Below are positions 54,692-63,627 of a DNA stretch of 64,000 nt, in pieces. Each line of letters begins with the position of its first letter. Positions within the stretch are counted from its first letter, which is position 1. The notes under the pieces are model-generated. The model made no database searches. It saw only the letters and a program-made list of their open reading frames with translations, and was not told the DNA's origin. The DNA is from Pirellula sp. (lineage in GTDB: Bacteria; Planctomycetota; Planctomycetia; Pirellulales; Pirellulaceae). Made by a program: the position numbers and the translations under genes. Location of the stretch: contig JAJTFB010000001.1 in the NCBI GenBank assembly GCA_021300015.1, positions 1-64,000 on the forward strand, given 5' to 3'.

Positions 54692-55705
54692 CTAATTACG
54701 CTCACGGACCTGTTGACGAAGTTCGGCTGTGATCGCTTGCAACTGACCAAGCGATCGGTCTTGGAAAGTCGATGCATCGCTCAGCGGTAATCCTAGAATC
54801 TCCTGCAGGGTTTGGATCAGTTGGATCTGGCCCTCCTTGAGTCCCTCCTGCTTGCCCTCCTGCTTGCCTTCCTGACGACCTTCCTGACGACCCTCTTGAC
54901 GACCTTCCTGGATCCCCTCCAATCGACCTTTCTTCATATACTCGTCGGCGATCGAACCTGGCTCGATTTGCGTTGGAAATATCTTTTGGATCGTCATCGC
55001 AAGGGTCTCCATGGGAATCGAAGGAGTAACTGTCGTAATATAGACCAACACCGCATCCAAATGCTCTGCCTGCAACTCCGCCGTGCCGATTTCAAGCAAA
55101 CACCGCAAAATGGACTCAAGCTTGTCCCTGAAGTTTCTTGTCCGACTATATTTTAGCAGTCCAAGCACACTTTGCAAAAAGGGGTCGGTCGCCAGCAATT
55201 CATCCGGTATCTGTCCAATGTCCACGACCGGATAAGCCATTCGAACACCTTGTTCAAAGAGAATACTCGGACCACCGATCAACTCTTCGAGGCTAACGGG
55301 AGCCGACCAAGCCTCCTGGCCATGATAGAGCACCAGCGGGAATACAGGGCACAAAGCTTGGCCCTTGCGCAGTCGCTGCTCCCATATCCGGACGATGTAA
55401 CGGAGCAACTGAAAACAGGTCATCGGATCCGACTGGCTCTTGTGCTCCAAAAGAATATAAACCTGTCCCTCGACCGGCTCACCGTCTTGGCCCGAGAGCC
55501 GGATCGAATAGAGCATATCCGAGTAAGTGTCCCGCAATTCGTCATCGACAAACGAATCTTTTTGAAGCTCGAGCGAATCAAGATCCAGGATCTGGACCAA
55601 ATCGGCAGGCAGGTGCAATTCGATCAAATTCCTGGCCGCCGCAGGATGCGAAAACGCATATTGGAAAAAGTTGTTGTGCGGCGTAGGTAGCTTGGATTGG
55701 TCCAT
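54692..55705 (-). CDS. Rpn-family recombination-promoting nuclease / transposase-like protein
   Basis: The 337-residue protein starts PHNNFFQYAFSHPAAARNLI and has the PD-(D/E)xK core: acidic residues in DDELRDTYSDMLYSIRL and E-x-K in VYILLEHKSQSD. This is the Rpn/YhgA class, DNA endonucleases that raise recombination. The C-terminal part holds about six in-frame E-G-R/K-Q units. The ATG at 55705 is chosen just before the conserved start; the frame opens at 55726. No terminal inverted repeats are visible around the gene. Confidence 0.88.
   Translation of the reverse strand: MDQSKLPTPHNNFFQYAFSHPAAARNLIELHLPADLVQILDLDSLELQKDSFVDDELRDTYSDMLYSIRLSGQDGEPVEGQVYILLEHKSQSDPMTCFQLLRYIVRIWEQRLRKGQALCPVFPLVLYHGQEAWSAPVSLEELIGGPSILFEQGVRMAYPVVDIGQIPDELLATDPFLQSVLGLLKYSRTRNFRDKLESILRCLLEIGTAELQAEHLDAVLVYITTVTPSIPMETLAMTIQKIFPTQIEPGSIADEYMKKGRLEGIQEGRQEGRQEGRQEGKQEGKQEGLKEGQIQLIQTLQEILGLPLSDASTFQDRSLGQLQAITAELRQQVRERN
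54831..54932 (-). repeat. 12-bp tandem repeat in the Rpn gene
   Basis: Units of CTGCTTGCCTTC or CTGACGACCTTC type recur about seven times and encode E-G-R-Q and E-G-K-Q. Such runs near the C-terminus are typical for this family and can vary in number. Confidence 0.85.
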
Positions 55706-55883
55706 AGCTCCCAATTTTAGGACCAAGTGAGATTTGCTTTAGAATTTGGTCGAATTTTTTATTCAGGTGACCTTTCCTGTTCCTCGTTCGGATCGTTCCA
55801 GAGATCGCTCCGAGACCTTACAATAAATCCCGCGGGCTCGGTTCCCGATACCCAAACTTGCTCCCCCCAGAAACCAACACGCT

Positions 55884-57431
55884 GTGTCTGACTCCTCGAC
55901 CAAAGGCAAAATCGTACTCGTCGCGCTGACTTGGCTGGTCCTGCTTGCCATAGGAGTAGGGATTTGGCGATGGATCATCGTCCCGAAAAAAAACCAGCAG
56001 CAGCAGCAAGCGACCAAGCAGCAGGCCGATCAGACCCTGGCGGCCACCTCGGGCACGAGCCGCTATCGCTTCGAACTGAACCTTGGACTCGATAACTTCT
56101 CGGGCTATGCGGTCCTTCGGTCCGAAGAGTTCCGCAAGCAACTTGCCGATCGAGGCATCCGGATCAACAACGTCGACGACGGTGCCAACTACACCCAGCG
56201 CGCCGCGGAACTCGAAAACGGCAAACTCCAACTCGCAGCCTTTCCGGCTGATGCCCTCCTGAAACAGTTCTCCGGCAAAGAATATCCGGCCGGAACAATC
56301 GTTGGAATCATCGATGAGACCCGCGGTGCCGATGCGATGCTGGCTTACAAAACCAAATTCCCCGACGTCGATAAACTCAATCGGCCCGAGGTCCGTTTCG
56401 TCCTGGTCGGGGACTCTCCGAGCGAGACCCTCGCCCGCGTCGTGATGCAAGACTTTGGCCTCGATCAATCGAACACTGCGAGTATTCAAAACGTAGCCTC
56501 ACCCGAAGCCGTCTTGGCCAAGTACCGGGCAGCGACCCCTCAGACCGATGAGGTCTATGTCACCTGGGAGCCTTACGTTTCCCAGATGCTGGCCAACGAC
56601 CAACTCCACGTGCTGGTCGACTCGTCACGCTTCACCGGATACATCGTCGATACGTTGGTCGTCAGTCGCGACTTCCTCCTGAAAAACGGACCTGCCGTCG
56701 AGTCGATCCTCGAAGCCTACTTCACCGCACTTTATAACTTCCGCGAAGAAGAGGCCATGATCAAGCTCCTGCTTCAGGATGCCAAAGAGACCAAACAGGA
56801 ACTGACCGAGGCACAGGCCAAGCGGCTCGTGCAGGGGATCCAGTGGAAGAACACCCAGGAGAACCTCGCTCACTTCGGAAAACGCGCCGGTGCTCTGGTG
56901 CACATCGAAGACATCCTCGGGCGAATCTCGAATGTGCTGGTCAAAGCCGGCACGATCGACGAACCAAACAACGCAAACCGATTCACTAAGTACTTCTACG
57001 ATCGCCCCCTGGAGAGCTTGCTCAACAAGAGCTTCCACCCAGGGCTTGCCAACGAAACGATCCGCGAGGAAAACAAACTCAAGGCTCTAACGGATGCGCA
57101 ATGGGGGAAACTGACAACCGTCGGAACCTTAAGCGTCCCGGAATTGGTCTTTGTACGGGGAAGCCCAAACCTGACCGATGCGAGCAAACGCACCTTGGAT
57201 GATCTTGGCCAAAAACTACAAGCTTGGCCCCAGTATTACCTGATCATCCGAGGCAATGCTTCCCAAGCCGGAGACATGCAAGCGAACCTCAAGCTCGCCG
57301 CTCAGCGCGGCGATGCAGCCATGAAGTATCTGCTCGGGCTCGGGATCCCAACCGAGAGAATGCAAGTCAGCACCGAGGGCATCACCGGCCAGACGCGCGT
57401 GACGTTCGTCGTAGGACAAGTCCCTTACTGA
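55884..57431 (+). CDS. membrane-anchored substrate-binding domain fused to an OmpA-like domain
   Basis: The 515-residue protein has an N-terminal membrane helix (about 10-33), a Gln-rich linker and a periplasmic binding-protein-like domain (about 58-390). The latter shows NLGLDNFSGYAVL, LAAFPADALL, EVRFVLVGDSPSET and DEVYVTWEPYVSQML, in the style of nitrate/taurine-type binding proteins. The last 110 residues resemble OmpA domains (LVFVRGSPNLTDASKRTLDD, IRGNASQ, RGDAAMKYLLGLGIPTERM), which bind peptidoglycan. The start is a GTG. It is the first of five genes in the same direction, 6 bp before the next. Confidence 0.85.
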   Translation: MSDSSTKGKIVLVALTWLVLLAIGVGIWRWIIVPKKNQQQQQATKQQADQTLAATSGTSRYRFELNLGLDNFSGYAVLRSEEFRKQLADRGIRINNVDDGANYTQRAAELENGKLQLAAFPADALLKQFSGKEYPAGTIVGIIDETRGADAMLAYKTKFPDVDKLNRPEVRFVLVGDSPSETLARVVMQDFGLDQSNTASIQNVASPEAVLAKYRAATPQTDEVYVTWEPYVSQMLANDQLHVLVDSSRFTGYIVDTLVVSRDFLLKNGPAVESILEAYFTALYNFREEEAMIKLLLQDAKETKQELTEAQAKRLVQGIQWKNTQENLAHFGKRAGALVHIEDILGRISNVLVKAGTIDEPNNANRFTKYFYDRPLESLLNKSFHPGLANETIREENKLKALTDAQWGKLTTVGTLSVPELVFVRGSPNLTDASKRTLDDLGQKLQAWPQYYLIIRGNASQAGDMQANLKLAAQRGDAAMKYLLGLGIPTERMQVSTEGITGQTRVTFVVGQVPY

Positions 57432-57437
57432 GATGCC

Positions 57438-58169
57438 GTGGAAGCGTTAAGAAAAAGAATTCTCCGTGAGATTTTCATCGCACCCTCGGTGGTATTGCCC
57501 GTCGTCGGCGGAGCGAGTGCTTGGCTACTGTCCTGGGCTGGCGGGGGAAACGATTGGCTCAATCTTGCCGGCCTTGTAGGGGTCCTAGGCGGAGTGGGCT
57601 GGTTTGCCACCCGATTCATCTTTCAGCTCGACGGAATTTCAGAGAAAGCGATGCAGGATCTGGCCGAGGAAGCCCTGCAAAAGGAGGAAAAACACCTCAA
57701 CGAACTCCAGAAACGCTTGGCCAACGATCGAGACCCCCGGACCGAGCAATACTTGATTTTGCTCCGTGAAAACCGCACCGAGCTCGAACGCATCGCCCGA
57801 ACCCCCGGAATCGAACTTCGAAGCCTCGAGATTGTCAAGCAAGCTCGGCAGTTGTTCTGGGCAGCTAGCGACCAACTCGACCAATCGATGAAAATGTACG
57901 AGCTTGCCCAAAAGCTAACCGGGGCCGAAAAACAAGGCGTTTTGGCCCAGCGCGAACGGTGTTTGGAAGAGGCCCGCGAAAGCTCCGAGCACCTCCGCGA
58001 TGCGATCGCAACATTCCGTCAGTTTGCCGACAAAACCCTCGAACGCGACATGGATACCCTCCAACTCGAACTTGCCGAATCGATCCGAGCGGCCAAGCGA
58101 TCCGAGGAGCGAATGCGCGAACTGCAAAACCGACCCGACTACGAAAGATATTTCAATCCTGAAAGCTAA
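57438..58169 (+). CDS. two-helix membrane protein with long coiled coil
   Basis: The 243-residue protein has two membrane helices (about 15-33 and 40-60). The rest is almost wholly helical and charged (KHLNELQKRLAND, ENRTELERIAR, AESIRAAKRSEERMRELQN), so a cytoplasmic coiled coil is likely. I recognise no family; a resemblance to XpaC-type proteins is a guess. The start is GTG at 57438, 6 bp after the previous stop. The place between an OmpA-linked binding protein and a PspA-like protein suggests a shared membrane role. Confidence 0.72.
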   Translation: MEALRKRILREIFIAPSVVLPVVGGASAWLLSWAGGGNDWLNLAGLVGVLGGVGWFATRFIFQLDGISEKAMQDLAEEALQKEEKHLNELQKRLANDRDPRTEQYLILLRENRTELERIARTPGIELRSLEIVKQARQLFWAASDQLDQSMKMYELAQKLTGAEKQGVLAQRERCLEEARESSEHLRDAIATFRQFADKTLERDMDTLQLELAESIRAAKRSEERMRELQNRPDYERYFNPES

Positions 58170-58290
58170 ATTGGCCGACGCGAATTTAGCCAAAGTTTGT
58201 ACACTGTACCGTGTGGCGAGATTCGCCCTAGACTTCACTACCCATTGAAACCTCTAACTTTTCCTTTCTTGTATCAGGAGCGACCCTGCG

Positions 58291-59100
58291 ATGTTCAATG
58301 CCCTCAGCCGCCTATTCCGGGCTGTGAAATACCTCTTCACCGGCAAGGTAGACGCTGCCGCCGATTCCTTGAGCACCAACCCGACGGTCATCTCGGCCAA
58401 CTACGATCGGATCGTCGAGGAGAAGCGCAAGCGGCTCAATCAGTACGTCGATGCCGTCGGTGCGATGATCGCTCAAGAGGAGAACAAGAAGGCCAAGCTC
58501 ACCCAGTTGACCGAGGAAGTCCAGAAGCTCGAAAAGCTCAAAGCCGGTGCTGCAGCTCGAGCCAAACAACTCGTCGACAAGTACAACGGAGATGTCACTG
58601 CGGTCAAAAACGACCCCGAGTATGCCAAGTGCCAAGCGGCCTTCAAGGACTTCTCGAGCACCCTCGCTGAGAAACAACAACGAGCCCTAGAGCTCGAAGA
58701 AGACATGAAGCAATTGGTCGGCAACGTGACGAATCACAAGAACCAAATCCAGTCGCTCATGCGAGAACTCGAGAAGCTCAAGGAAGAAAAGCACGATGCA
58801 GTAGCCGATGTGCTTTCTGCCAAAGAAGAAAAGCAAATCGCCGATATGGTCAACGGAATCACCAACGACAAGACGGCAGCCGATCTACAACGCTTGAGAG
58901 AACTGCGACAAAAGGCAGCGGCAAGCGCCCGCGTCTCGCGAGAGGTGGCAGGCTTGGACTCCAAGCGAGCCGAGTCGGAGTTCTTGGAATACGCCCAACA
59001 AGTAGCCTCGGATGACGAATTCGACGCCTTGATCGGACTGTCCAAGGATCAAAAAGCCAACGATGCACCAGCTCGCGATACGAAGATTCCCGAGGCCTGA
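58291..59100 (+). CDS. PspA/IM30 (ESCRT-III)-like coiled-coil protein
   Basis: The 269-residue protein starts with an amphipathic helix (MFNALSRLFRAVKYLF). About 200 residues of charged helix follow, with the PspA-type hairpin pattern (AKLTQLTEEVQKLEKLKAG, QIQSLMRELEKLKEEKHD). PspA/Vipp1 proteins polymerise on stressed inner membranes and are bacterial ESCRT-III relatives. Identity with classical PspA is weak by eye, so this is an assignment by shape. An AGGAG ribosome site precedes the ATG. It is the third gene of the run. Confidence 0.7.
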   Translation: MFNALSRLFRAVKYLFTGKVDAAADSLSTNPTVISANYDRIVEEKRKRLNQYVDAVGAMIAQEENKKAKLTQLTEEVQKLEKLKAGAAARAKQLVDKYNGDVTAVKNDPEYAKCQAAFKDFSSTLAEKQQRALELEEDMKQLVGNVTNHKNQIQSLMRELEKLKEEKHDAVADVLSAKEEKQIADMVNGITNDKTAADLQRLRELRQKAAASARVSREVAGLDSKRAESEFLEYAQQVASDDEFDALIGLSKDQKANDAPARDTKIPEA

Positions 59101-59175
59101 TCCGAGCCATTGGATCTTGGACTGACCCCTGCGCCCTTATGCCCCCAGACGGAAACAACTCCACGGAGCTTTGCT

Positions 59176-60384
59176 ATGAAGATGCGGTTTGATTCACGGT
59201 TGCGATTTGCCTCCTTGGCCACCTCCTGCACGCTAGCCCTTTGCACGGTCGCTTGGTTCGGCGCGTTCCAAGGCTGCACCGATTCGAAGCCTGCGGCCAG
59301 CACGAAGCCTGCGGCCAGCACCGCAGCGGGCTCGACGGCGGGTTCGACGGCGGGTTCGACGGCCAGCCCGTCGACTGGCTCAGCCGGAAACTCGACCAGC
59401 AAACCGGCCACCTTCACGCTGGCCTGGAGCGAGTACCCCTCGTGGAGCATCTTCGGTGTGGCCGATGAAGTCGGCTTGATCGATGGCAAAGAAGGGCAGA
59501 TGGGGTCGATCGAGAAGAAATACAACGTCGATATCAAGTTGGTTTTGGCCAGCTACGACAGTTGCATTACCCTCTATGGCAACTCCCAAGCCGATGGTGT
59601 GTGCATCACCAATATCGACATTCTCGGAGCGGCCGGTTCCCGCAACTCCGTCGCGGTCCTACCGACCTCGACCAGCGCGGGGGCCGATGCGTGCATCGTC
59701 GCCGGGGTCAACTCCCTCGAAGAGCTCGCCGGGAAACCCACGCGGGGATTGGAAAAGAGCGTCTCGCAGTACTGCTTCGAACGCTGCTTGGAAAAACTCG
59801 GCAAGAACCCCGCCGACTACCCCTTCTCGCAGATGGATCCCGAGCAAGCCGCTCTGGCGTTCCAAGGCAAGAACGATGGGATCAACTCGATCATGGTTTG
59901 GAACCCGTTTGTTATGCAATCGATCCGTAGCCGATCGGATGCAAAAGTCCTCTTCAGCTCCGAGACCATTCCCGAAGAGATCATCGACATGGTCGTCGTC
60001 GGCAAAGACTCCCTTTCCAAACCCGGCGGAGAAGCTTTCGCCAAAGCCGTCGTCGAGACCTTCTACACCATGACCCAACGGATGGCCGATCCGAAAACCT
60101 CCGACGAAACACTCATCGGGATCGGGGCTCGCTTTGCCAAGCTTGAACTCGATGACATGAAAACGATCGTCCAACAGACAAAATTCTTCAGCGACCCCAA
60201 CGATGCGAAGCGATTGTTTGCCGACGAACGGTTCCAAAAAGAAACGATGCCCTTGGTCAGCAAGTTCTGCGTCAAGTACGGGCTGACAACCACCCCAGTG
60301 GAGCTTTCCTTTGGAGATGCAAAGGGGCTCATGGACTTTAGCACCAAGTACATCTCGGGCTATGCCGAAAGCCAAACAAAATAG
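59176..60384 (+). CDS. ABC transporter substrate-binding protein (nitrate/sulfonate/taurine-like)
   Basis: The 402-residue protein has a signal region (about 10-33) ending FQGC, which may be a lipobox, then a low-complexity stretch from a DNA repeat (A-A-S-T, G-S-T units). The binding domain begins FTLAWSEYPSWSIFGVADE and has SVSQYCFERCLEKLGKNP, MDPEQAALAFQ and MVWNPFVMQSI. This fold binds small anions or organic compounds for SsuABC/TauABC-type import. The ATG at 59176 has GGAG 8 nt before it. The permease gene follows after 61 bp. Confidence 0.85.
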   Translation: MKMRFDSRLRFASLATSCTLALCTVAWFGAFQGCTDSKPAASTKPAASTAAGSTAGSTAGSTASPSTGSAGNSTSKPATFTLAWSEYPSWSIFGVADEVGLIDGKEGQMGSIEKKYNVDIKLVLASYDSCITLYGNSQADGVCITNIDILGAAGSRNSVAVLPTSTSAGADACIVAGVNSLEELAGKPTRGLEKSVSQYCFERCLEKLGKNPADYPFSQMDPEQAALAFQGKNDGINSIMVWNPFVMQSIRSRSDAKVLFSSETIPEEIIDMVVVGKDSLSKPGGEAFAKAVVETFYTMTQRMADPKTSDETLIGIGARFAKLELDDMKTIVQQTKFFSDPNDAKRLFADERFQKETMPLVSKFCVKYGLTTTPVELSFGDAKGLMDFSTKYISGYAESQTK

Positions 60385-60445
60385 GCCCATTGGCCCCTCC
60401 AAACAGCCTCAAAAGACCCGAACCTAGAACCTCGGTAAACCGACT

Positions 60446-61258
60446 ATGATTCGACGCGTCATTCCGACATGGCTCTTTTTTGCCCTAGCGATCGCCGGAG
60501 TGAGCGCCCTGCTTGTCAGCTACGAGTTCCTCTCGCAGCGGCAAACTCGTATCAACCCCAAGCAGACGACCATCCCTTCGTTTGAAAAACTCGGGGAAGG
60601 TGTCAAGCGAATGTTTGCTAAACAAGGAACCCAAGAGAATCCCAAGCCGCCGATGTTTTGGAACGACATGCGAGCCACTCTATGGAGGTTGTTTATCGGC
60701 ATGGGGATCGGAGTTTTGGCTTCGGTACTCGTCGGCGTCCTGATGGGAGCCTACCGCTGGATCGAGGCTCCCTTGAGTCCCATCGTGATGTTTCTCTCAA
60801 AAATCCCCCCGACGGGGATGATGCCCATCTACTTCGCGATTGCGGGCACCGACCAACGCATGTTCACCTCCATGGTCGCCTTGGGAATCTTCTTTTCCAT
60901 GACCCAATCGATCTACCAATCGGTCCGCGACAACGTCACCGACGAGGCCATCAATAAGGCTTATACACTTGGGGCTTCGGAATCCGAGGTGATTTTCGAG
61001 GTGATATGGAAGCAGATTTTGCCGAATGTCATCGATTGCATCCGGGCCCAAATCGGACCTGCGATGATCTTTTTGATCGCCGCAGAGATGGTCGTCAGCG
61101 ATGCAGGCTTGGGGTATCAGATCCGCATGCAATCGCGAGTCTTGAATATGAACATCGTCTTTGTCTACCTGCTGGTTCTCGGGCTCATCGGCGTGGTGGC
61201 CGAGTATTCCCTGCTGTGGGTCCGCCGCCGATTGTGCCCGTGGTTCGAGGGAACCTAA
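60446..61258 (+). CDS. ABC transporter permease, SsuC/TauC type
   Basis: This 270-residue protein has a hydrophobic start and about five further helices. It carries the EAA loop that normally contacts the ATPase: [20 protein letters not shown], then LP seven residues on. It pairs with the preceding binding protein. No ABC ATPase gene follows; the next gene is leuB. The importer must therefore borrow an ATPase encoded elsewhere or work in another way. Confidence 0.9.
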
Positions 61259-62382: not shown

Positions 62383-63627
62383 GTGCCAACGATGGACGAG
62401 TCGAATCCAAAACCCAAGCTCTGCTCGTTCTGCTCTCTGGTGTGCGAATTACCGGATCTGGACGATCGCTCCGCTGGACCTGAGCCCTGGTGCATCAAGC
62501 GATCAGGCCTGGGGAAGCTCGTCCCGCTGCGACTCGCAAGCATGGCCAGCGCCCACCGCTCCGCAGTCACTTCAGACGCACAAGAGTCCTATTTTGAGTC
62601 CTCATTGCGAATCGCAAGCCAGCAGCTTCGACGCGCAAGCTCGATTTTGGTGACTGGCCGGATCCACTGCGTCGAATCAGCCCGGGGATCCATCGAGCTA
62701 GCGCGGCGGTTCGACGCCGCAATCGATCCTTGGGATAGCGACACGGCCTCGGATGCGATCTCGGCGATGCAGCGAGGGGGGGGATATGGTGTCTCGTTGG
62801 GAGAAGCGCGAGATCGCGCCGAACTGTGGGTCGTCGTCGGCCAGGATTCCTTGCTCGAACAAACACCCAGGCTTCCAATTGCGATGCACCGAGGCGAATC
62901 GGTTCCGTTGCTGCTTCTGGGGCGCTGGAGCGATGCGAGCATTGAAAACTTTAGAGAAGCTGGATTCGATGTGGTCTGCATCGAATGCGAATTGGAGGAT
63001 CTGCCCAAGAGGCTCGGGCAATGGACGCGAGTCGGCCAGACGCACTCCGAGAGCCAAGTCGGACAGTGGCTCTTGGGGGCTAAGTACACCGTGTTCCTTT
63101 ATGCTCCATCGGCACTGGATGTCGAGGGTCGGGACCTATGGATCGAAGCGCTCGATCGATGGGTGCTCCAACGCAACGAAACCACTCGAGCCGTGACCCT
63201 GTCTTGGGGGACATTGCAATCTTCGTTCCATCAAACCTGCACTTGGCTGACGGGTTTTCCTGGCAGGATACAGTTTCGTGAGGGCATACCCCAGTACGAT
63301 CCGCATGGGTATCGAGCCAAGGACTGGGTGGATCGGCAAACGGCCAGCGCGCAAGCCAAGTCGAGATCGTTGCTCGTCTGGGTCGACGATTCGCTCGAGG
63401 AGCTGCCCGGCGAATTGCTTGAACTCGATCTTCCCAAATTGATCATCGGTCCGAATCCGGGCTCCTCGAACCATCAGGCGGATCGATGGTTGCCTGCGGG
63501 GATCGTCGGAGTGACCCATACGGTCAACATGTTTCGGGGCGATCAGACGATCCTTGCAAACGTGCATAGCGATTGCCCACCGGGCTCTCAGATGCCTTCG
63601 CAATGGCTCAAGAGGTTCCTCTCATGA
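62383..63627 (+). CDS. fhcB: formylmethanofuran dehydrogenase subunit B (FhcB)
   Basis: The 414-residue protein starts with a Cys cluster (CSFCSLVC then WCIKR) and continues with the FwdB/FhcB body, recognisable in CTWLTGFPGRIQFREGIPQYDP. In methylotrophic bacteria and planctomycetes the Fhc complex is a formyltransferase/hydrolase of the methanopterin-linked C1 pathway, releasing formate. The start is GTG at 62383, with AAGG upstream; ATG 62392 is an alternative. It overlaps fhcA by 4 bp. Confidence 0.88.
   Translation: MPTMDESNPKPKLCSFCSLVCELPDLDDRSAGPEPWCIKRSGLGKLVPLRLASMASAHRSAVTSDAQESYFESSLRIASQQLRRASSILVTGRIHCVESARGSIELARRFDAAIDPWDSDTASDAISAMQRGGGYGVSLGEARDRAELWVVVGQDSLLEQTPRLPIAMHRGESVPLLLLGRWSDASIENFREAGFDVVCIECELEDLPKRLGQWTRVGQTHSESQVGQWLLGAKYTVFLYAPSALDVEGRDLWIEALDRWVLQRNETTRAVTLSWGTLQSSFHQTCTWLTGFPGRIQFREGIPQYDPHGYRAKDWVDRQTASAQAKSRSLLVWVDDSLEELPGELLELDLPKLIIGPNPGSSNHQADRWLPAGIVGVTHTVNMFRGDQTILANVHSDCPPGSQMPSQWLKRFLS

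Follow-up and report, generated by a model that had tools for sequence, protein, structure and literature searches.

Gene content of the locus

The window examined here is a 64,000-nucleotide stretch of a Pirellula sp. assembly (GCA_021300015.1, contig JAJTFB010000001.1, positions 1 to 64,000), and the system in question is a run of five co-directional genes for a predicted envelope module with a PspA-like protein. By gene content and order, these five genes are a fragment of a nine-gene set that also comprises an AAA+ ATPase, a second binding-protein/OmpA fusion (ompSBP2), a vWA protein and a dedicated ATP-binding cassette (ABC) ATPase. All five reading frames were confirmed, with intergenic gaps of 6, 121, 9 and 61 bp, in agreement with the original prediction of five genes in one direction, the first two of them 6 bp apart.

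55884 to 57431, + strand: ompSBP1, 515 aa, GTG start; hydrophobic N-terminal anchor, NitT/TauT-type binding-protein region and OmpA-like C terminus
57438 to 58169, + strand: TMcoil, 243 aa; membrane segments and a coiled coil, no known family
58291 to 59100, + strand: PspA/ESCRT-III-like helical protein (P0003), 269 aa
59176 to 60384, + strand: SBP, binding protein and probable lipoprotein, closest family TIGR03427 (urea-type binding proteins); likely start ATG at 59176, listed start TTG at 59110 (reading frame 59110 to 60384)
60446 to 61258, + strand: ABC permease, TauC/SsuC-like, 270 aa; EAA-type loop kept

A recurring nine-gene set

GTDB species genomes were scanned with a profile of the first gene via two exact peptide patterns, giving 185 stretches and 56 confirmed loci; because only two exact patterns were used, the scan does not show absence outside the phyla found. 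Neighbours, defined as co-directional genes within 600 bp, were counted by six-frame profile searches of the 56 loci. The pairs were ompSBP1-TMcoil (49 loci), TMcoil-PspA (33), vWA-ompSBP1 (31), PspA-SBP (30), SBP-permease (29), ompSBP2-vWA (27), permease-ATPase (14) and AAA-ompSBP2 (9). The gene order, whose conservation had been proposed as a check, recurs across the genus and beyond, more than by chance. Many loci end early: five of the seven without TMcoil end 71 bases or less from ompSBP1, and the other two (L127 and L151) continue for 10 kb without it. The ABC ATPase is present in 17 of the 29 loci with the permease and not in 12, three of which end within 273 bases; the other nine are the same contigs as the same-genus genomes of the permease search described below.

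All nine families occur in a single locus in eight of the 56 cases (L126, L134, L140, L143, L146, L153, L154 and L156; PspA of L134 is in two pieces) and in four (G391, G180, G153 and G438) of 13 further regions chosen for an AAA or ompSBP1 match. Where the set is complete, the order seen most often is AAA - ompSBP2 - vWA - ompSBP1 - TMcoil - PspA - SBP - permease - ATPase. L153, L154 and G153 have AAA at the opposite end; L140, L143, L146, G391, G180 and G438 have a divergent ATPase. Record titles place L153 in Hydrogenedentota and L154 in Phycisphaerae, both with all nine families, and L157, with four families, in Lentisphaerae. Planctomycetota and Hydrogenedentota both have members with the whole set of nine genes, and the contig labelled Lentisphaerae has a part of four.

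The window genome (81% complete, 160 contigs) keeps all nine parts over three contigs: AAA, ompSBP2 and vWA together inside C20, the five genes inside C51 and the ATPase inside C124, where its neighbours are common to relatives. Contig breaks do not explain the split. The AAA+ ATPase, second fusion, vWA protein and ABC ATPase had been missed by the original prediction because they are located elsewhere in the genome.

Presence of the nine parts was tabulated in 60 genomes, that of the window and those of 59 relatives. Eight AAA matches with E values of 1e-48 to 1e-54 were scored as absent, as were permease matches weaker than E 1e-60 (including a 26-residue contig-end match in G011) and ATPase matches weaker than E 1e-90, and partial contig-end matches of other parts were scored as present. 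Twenty-one genomes have all nine parts, three have eight, one has seven, 31 have none and four are partial. Among the last, G003 (77% complete, 970 contigs) has two parts, G012 (76% complete) has PspA, AAA, a TMcoil paralogue and a partial ompSBP2, and G006 (one contig) and G026 (82% complete) keep only PspA, AAA and the TMcoil paralogue. Composition, recurring order and co-occurrence, like the intact nucleotide motifs described below, are properties of the sequences themselves.

Permease and ABC ATPase

The permease matches BPD_transp_1 in Pfam (59.4 bits) and has an EAA-type loop region, and SBP matches TIGR03427 at 145 bits against a cut-off of 333.9, in line with the SsuA/SsuC-type pair proposed for these genes. 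The further claim that the module has no ATPase holds for the window neighbourhood, where leuB lies directly downstream of the permease, but not for the system. The ATPase orthologue of the window genome (G000:C124:5098-5973) shares 68% identity (E 1.5e-141) with the operon-borne ATPase of G024 (P0006), the next best match having 40%, and contains Walker A and B motifs and an MSGG signature read by eye.

The permease was searched for in the same 60 genomes. Close genus members keep the five-gene order, likewise without an adjacent ATPase; in eight other genus members the permease is paired with an ABC ATPase apart from the other four genes; and in a third group of relatives the five-gene run is followed by an ABC ATPase. 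A conserved SsuB-type ATPase beside the permease, which the original prediction had set against its own ATPase-free module, is therefore found in relatives, and its fallback, an importer with a distant ATPase, agrees with an importer-type unit whose ATPase lies at C124 in the same genome. Strong ATPase matches (E<1e-90) were found in 23 of the 60 genomes and strong permease matches (E<1e-60) in 24, with both in 22. G001 (89% complete) and G008 (93% complete) have a strong permease without a strong ATPase, and G011 has the ATPase without the permease.

These data bear on the idea of an orphan permease that works as a sensor without an ATPase. No ATPase gene adjoins the window permease, as this idea would require, but the retained C124 orthologue, the ATPase beside the permease in relatives and the 22 genomes with strong matches to both make it highly improbable, and an ATPase-less sensor permease was rejected. 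Permease, ATPase with nucleotide motifs and binding protein together make up a NitT/TauT-type importer, paired by gene context rather than by contact. All importer-type NCBIfam scores are under equivalog cut-offs, so that no transport substrate is defined from them.

In several genus members (L064, L066 and L067), the relocated ABC ATPase follows a gene for a DUF808-type membrane protein (scanned in L066 only, with 349.7 bits). A putative superoxide-dismutase-like gene lies nearby.

Binding proteins and the vWA protein

The predicted binding-protein/OmpA fusion is borne out for ompSBP1 by an OmpA match of 42.2 bits in Pfam, weak matches to SsuA and urea-type binding proteins in NCBIfam and the hydrophobic N-terminal anchor, and the protein is conserved in relatives. 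Alignment to solved OmpA domains placed the columns of the HxD Asp and of an Arg, the residues of the peptidoglycan pocket in OmpA-type domains. In ompSBP1 the Asp is replaced in all 53 ungapped rows (57 rows in total) and the Arg is present in all 53, while all 27 rows of ompSBP2 (one genome is represented twice) have the two residues. Loss of the HxD Asp makes peptidoglycan binding by ompSBP1, and thus the likely peptidoglycan-binding end ascribed to it, doubtful. The two patterns suggest that ompSBP2 is held by the wall and ompSBP1 by the membrane.

The DxSxS motif is intact in all 10 vWA sequences, and the vWA protein has a hydrophobic stretch at its C terminus. Homologues of SBP begin at or near ATG 59176 (the 402-aa form), and a lipobox-like FQGC follows, which indicates that SBP is probably a lipoprotein. 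PDB sequence searches with the lipoprotein SBP and ompSBP2 profiles gave one weak SsuA match (E 0.0042) and one chance match (E 0.091). Directly before ompSBP1, nine of the 56 loci (L114-L119, L130, L136 and L152) have a gene for a PlsC-like acyltransferase, which again points to the membrane. One acyltransferase gene, L074:10697-11641, matches Pfam Acyltransferase at 79 bits and a 1-acylglycerol-3-phosphate acyltransferase model at 67.5 (cut-off, 102.95).

The set could be primarily a transporter, namely, a NitT/TauT-type importer with three tethered binding proteins in which PspA and AAA merely stabilize the membrane round a large trans-envelope complex. That the parts of an importer are all there, ATPase and permease loop included, that SBP is closest to the urea-type TIGR03427 and that permease-ATPase pairs lie apart from the other parts in eight genus members all fit this explanation. 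We consider it unlikely, because the importer is absent from the one-contig G006 (and from two incomplete genomes), which has PspA, AAA and the TMcoil paralogue. In addition, a known importer needs neither a pair of OmpA-type fusions nor a vWA protein.

PspA-like protein, TMcoil and AAA+ ATPase

In the AAA protein, the AAA module lies in the C-terminal part, where GxxGxGKT, Walker B (DEAD) and RRPGR are invariant in 10 of 10 sequences; the N-terminal half (~300 residues) lacks Walker A, as judged by eye. In NCBIfam the protein comes closest to CDC48 (53.1 bits) and to CdvC, the archaeal Vps4 homologue (44.7 bits), with both scores below cut-offs. As in Vps4/CdvC-type proteins, the module is of the classic AAA kind, with Walker A and B motifs and an arginine finger. 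No MIT domain was matched by Pfam in the three AAA proteins scanned (E≤0.1 or E≤0.5); a divergent MIT may still be present.

For the third gene, the structure comparison did not refute the PspA-like assignment. The AlphaFold model of P0003 (pLDDT 70.4, pTM 0.42) has helices at residues 2-16, 31-97, 109-189 and 196-247, in the helix order of PspA, and its ten best PDB matches by Foldseek are all Vipp1 (E 3.8e-4 to 1.1e-2; two with E<0.001). PF04012 (PspA_IM30) is the joint most frequent family among 13 diverse P0003-family members, seven of which match it at E≤0.1, and of the 25 families shown it reaches the lowest E value (3.6e-6, in a Hydrogenedentota member), with a score of 27.2 bits that is again below the cut-off. 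PDB sequence searches with P0003 and its family returned only chance coiled-coil matches. The PspA identity is drawn from fold ranking and context, not from Pfam, and is weak by sequence.

TMcoil has membrane segments and a coiled coil, as predicted, and a paralogue of it adjoins PspA in G006, G012, G022, G024 and G030. The XpaC fold suggested for this 243-residue protein is unsupported: neither Pfam nor NCBIfam gave an XpaC match at E≤1, and this identity was rejected. The sole PHROG match is phrog_1009 (E 0.00059), of no known function. The model of TMcoil is of low confidence (pLDDT 66, with residues 1 to 67 under 50); it had no PDB match at E≤0.001, and ESCRT-III and Vipp1 are absent from the 50 matches listed. 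Comparison by hhalign with the P0003 family, bearing on the "Snf7 with a TM segment" of Ravi et al., gave 3.7% over 57 columns. A PspA/Snf7 identity for TMcoil gains no support from these results but, given the weak model, may still hold.

AAA and PspA go together. AAA was found in 28 of the 60 genomes, PspA in 27 and both in 27. In a wider sample of 392 genomes of the phylum, strong AAA matches (E<1e-190) occur in 15 and strong ompSBP1 matches (E<1e-60) in eight, of which seven have the strong AAA. Eight genomes have a strong AAA without a strong ompSBP1; seven were examined (G320 was left out), and a PspA-like gene lies next to AAA in five, with 245 to 309 bits to the P0003-family profile. 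In G030, the TMcoil paralogue, PspA and AAA form their own cluster, apart from the other seven genes.

A gene for a giant DUF3686/AAA protein ("ATPase involved in DNA repair"; L169:11246-18721, 1,787 aa, and L045:7719-12953, 1,745 aa) adjoins the PspA-AAA dyad in G170 and is near the permease-ATPase pair in G021. The giant protein is followed in L169 by a protein of ~693 aa that has a hydrophobic segment in its N-terminal region and matches nothing in Pfam at E≤0.001.

Possible coupling of the two halves of the set

The reading that we prefer, although its chances are about even, is that a ligand-binding ABC unit is linked, by inference, to an ATP-driven, ESCRT-III-like membrane-maintenance core. 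A divergent sister operon in other planctomycetes, represented by L050-L054 (G055, G056, G046, G029 and G043), contains a PspA_IM30 protein, AAA, a binding-protein/OmpA fusion, a permease and an ABC ATPase. The PspA gene was seen in four of these five operons, and the two PspA proteins scanned pass PF04012 (48.5 and 49.0 bits) and are encoded next to a related AAA gene. The two fusions scanned have an OmpA domain, and permease and ATPase lie nearby. L053 also encodes an additional protein of ~96 aa.

Two functionally separate systems, PspA-AAA-TMcoil and ABC/OmpA/vWA, might instead lie in a single operon but not interact physically or functionally. The subsets are indeed separate in G006, G012 and G026, G030 has two clusters, and PspA-AAA dyads stand by themselves in five distant genomes; TMcoil directly before SBP, without PspA, in nine of the 56 loci is equally in keeping with separate systems and counts against coupling. 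Yet G003 and G016 (1,040 contigs, AAA kept), both in many pieces, are the only ones of the 60 genomes in which the outer part occurs with members of the core missing, and the sister operon again joins PspA, AAA, binding-protein/OmpA, permease and ATPase. Separate systems are therefore improbable.

Further observations weigh against a coupled PspA-AAA core. With respect to the identity of the third gene, P0003 scores 14.7 bits against PF04012, for which the cut-off is 33.9, and is not a Pfam member; every family member with a score shown is also under the cut-off, and the protein is for this reason named PspA-like. The ten best Vipp1 matches by Foldseek have root mean square deviations (rmsd) of 10 to 36 Å. 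VIA-align did not discriminate, as Vipp1 6zvs (Z 11.5, rmsd 3.5, 133 aligned) ranked 39th of the 50 shown and unrelated hairpins had equal or higher Z scores. Alignment of the P0003 and sister PspA families by hhalign was not significant (probability 0.6%; low-diversity profiles), and two scanned PspA-like proteins of dyads had no PF04012 match at E≤0.001.

With respect to linkage, AAA is not beside PspA in same-genus genomes, and no PspA was found beside AAA in G419 and G414, two of the seven AAA-only genomes examined. Only G030 and G050 of the 28 genomes with AAA are outside the genus of the window, and these counts are not independent; neither are the neighbour counts independent samples, because the 56 loci overlap with the 60 genomes. 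The downstream genes are absent from the next 10 kb in L127 and L151, and G012 (76%) and G026 (82%) are incomplete assemblies. A promoter scan gave one site, against a mean of 2.3 in shuffled sequences, and terminator-like sites numbered 11, against 7.9 in shuffles, all on the - strand; both results are uninformative on co-transcription.

Relation to known systems

Longer operons with PspA, AAA+, ABC ATPase, permease and a PBPB-OmpA protein are treated in one paragraph of Ravi et al. 2024 (PMC11237479). That account resembles ours in a two-AAA-domain protein with an inactive N-terminal copy and in the proposed link between membrane remodelling and solute transport. Its main text does not contain vWA, von Willebrand or planctomycetes, and its section 18 has one PBPB-OmpA protein and neither a lipoprotein binding protein nor splitting of the set, in which it differs from the genes described here. 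The sister operons L050-L054 are closer to this class than is the set of the window. The gene types of the class occur in one operon in eight of the 56 loci and are spread over three contigs in the window genome. Thus, the view that the system is not a described one is not entirely right, as Ravi et al. 2024 already mention the operon class; the fuller nine-gene set and its scattering over the genome are set out here. Among the matches listed in a literature search combining PspA, vWA, OmpA, AAA and ABC, only Ravi et al. were on the subject by title; further combinations of these subjects gave no paper, and the sole match for Pirellula with PspA was unrelated by title.

The ESCRT-III/Vps4 (CdvB/CdvC) system likewise combines an ESCRT-III-superfamily-like helical protein with an AAA+ ATPase, that of the set being nearest to CDC48/CdvC. 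The window-type system differs in being bacterial, in being tied to a transporter and in having no MIT domain found by Pfam. Two publications add to the points against our interpretation: a 2024 survey (PMC10936438), in the part concerned with this distribution, restricts systems that have both ESCRT-III and Vps4 to archaea and eukaryotes, and PspA rods are reported, in a passage of a second 2024 paper (PMC11746142), to hydrolyse ATP themselves.

The FtsZl1/vWA/OmpA system (Makarova and Koonin 2010, PMC2875224) also consists of predicted membrane-remodelling operons with a cytoplasmic polymer-type protein, a vWA protein (MIDAS mostly intact) and an OmpA-family protein, and planctomycetes are among its carriers. 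Its polymer-type protein is an FtsZ-like GTPase rather than PspA, and the part of the paper that sets out the system names neither an AAA core nor an ABC importer.

SsuABC/TauABC and TIGR03427 importers share the permease, ATPase and binding-protein families of the set. They differ in that two of the three binding proteins here have OmpA-type domains and that scores are far under equivalog cut-offs.

Neighbouring genes

Upstream of the module, the other strand encodes an NAD(P)H-hydrate dehydratase and an Rpn-family recombination-promoting nuclease with a repeated EGRQ/EGKQ stretch (54692-55726, - strand). Right after leuB, at 62383-63627, lies a C1-transfer gene for a protein similar to formylmethanofuran dehydrogenase subunit B (TIGR03129, 75 bits; cut-off, 327.8).

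Proposed function and significance

The original description of an envelope module with a PspA-like protein appears right. We infer from the nine genes that the PspA-like protein may polymerize, that AAA may drive its disassembly and that this core may be coupled to the ABC unit, whose ligand may be a small one. In the cytoplasm, the PspA/ESCRT-III-like protein would be held at the membrane by TMcoil, its polymers would bend or seal the inner membrane, and the CDC48/CdvC-like AAA+ ATPase would extract and recycle its subunits. On the outer face, wall-held ompSBP2, membrane-anchored ompSBP1, lipoprotein SBP and the MIDAS-type vWA protein would sit over the NitT/TauT-type permease with its own ATPase. 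This outer unit would sense or import a small ligand and direct the place or timing of action of the PspA-AAA core.

A stronger and more tentative proposal, which we consider less likely than not, is that the set is a bacterial ESCRT-III/Vps4 counterpart, with a PspA-like polymer, a dedicated CDC48/CdvC-type disassembly ATPase and, in control of these, a trans-envelope sensor in which an ABC transporter is combined with a metal-dependent vWA protein and tethered binding proteins. If so, an outside ligand or the state of the wall would trigger ATP-driven membrane remodelling inside the cell.

The main value of the finding lies in the ATPase question raised in the relevant passage of Liu et al. 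2021 (PMC8281802), where it is considered unclear whether PspF serves PspA as Vps4 serves ESCRT-III or whether an equivalent ATPase assists Vipp1. An AAA+ ATPase of CDC48/CdvC type accompanies a PspA-like protein in 27 of the 28 AAA-bearing genomes among the 60, and the two genes are direct neighbours in several distant genomes. The pair also persists in the complete, transporter-free G006. With these findings, the ATPase question can be put to the test with two purified proteins. In addition, the outer unit would be a new route linking envelope sensing to membrane remodelling.

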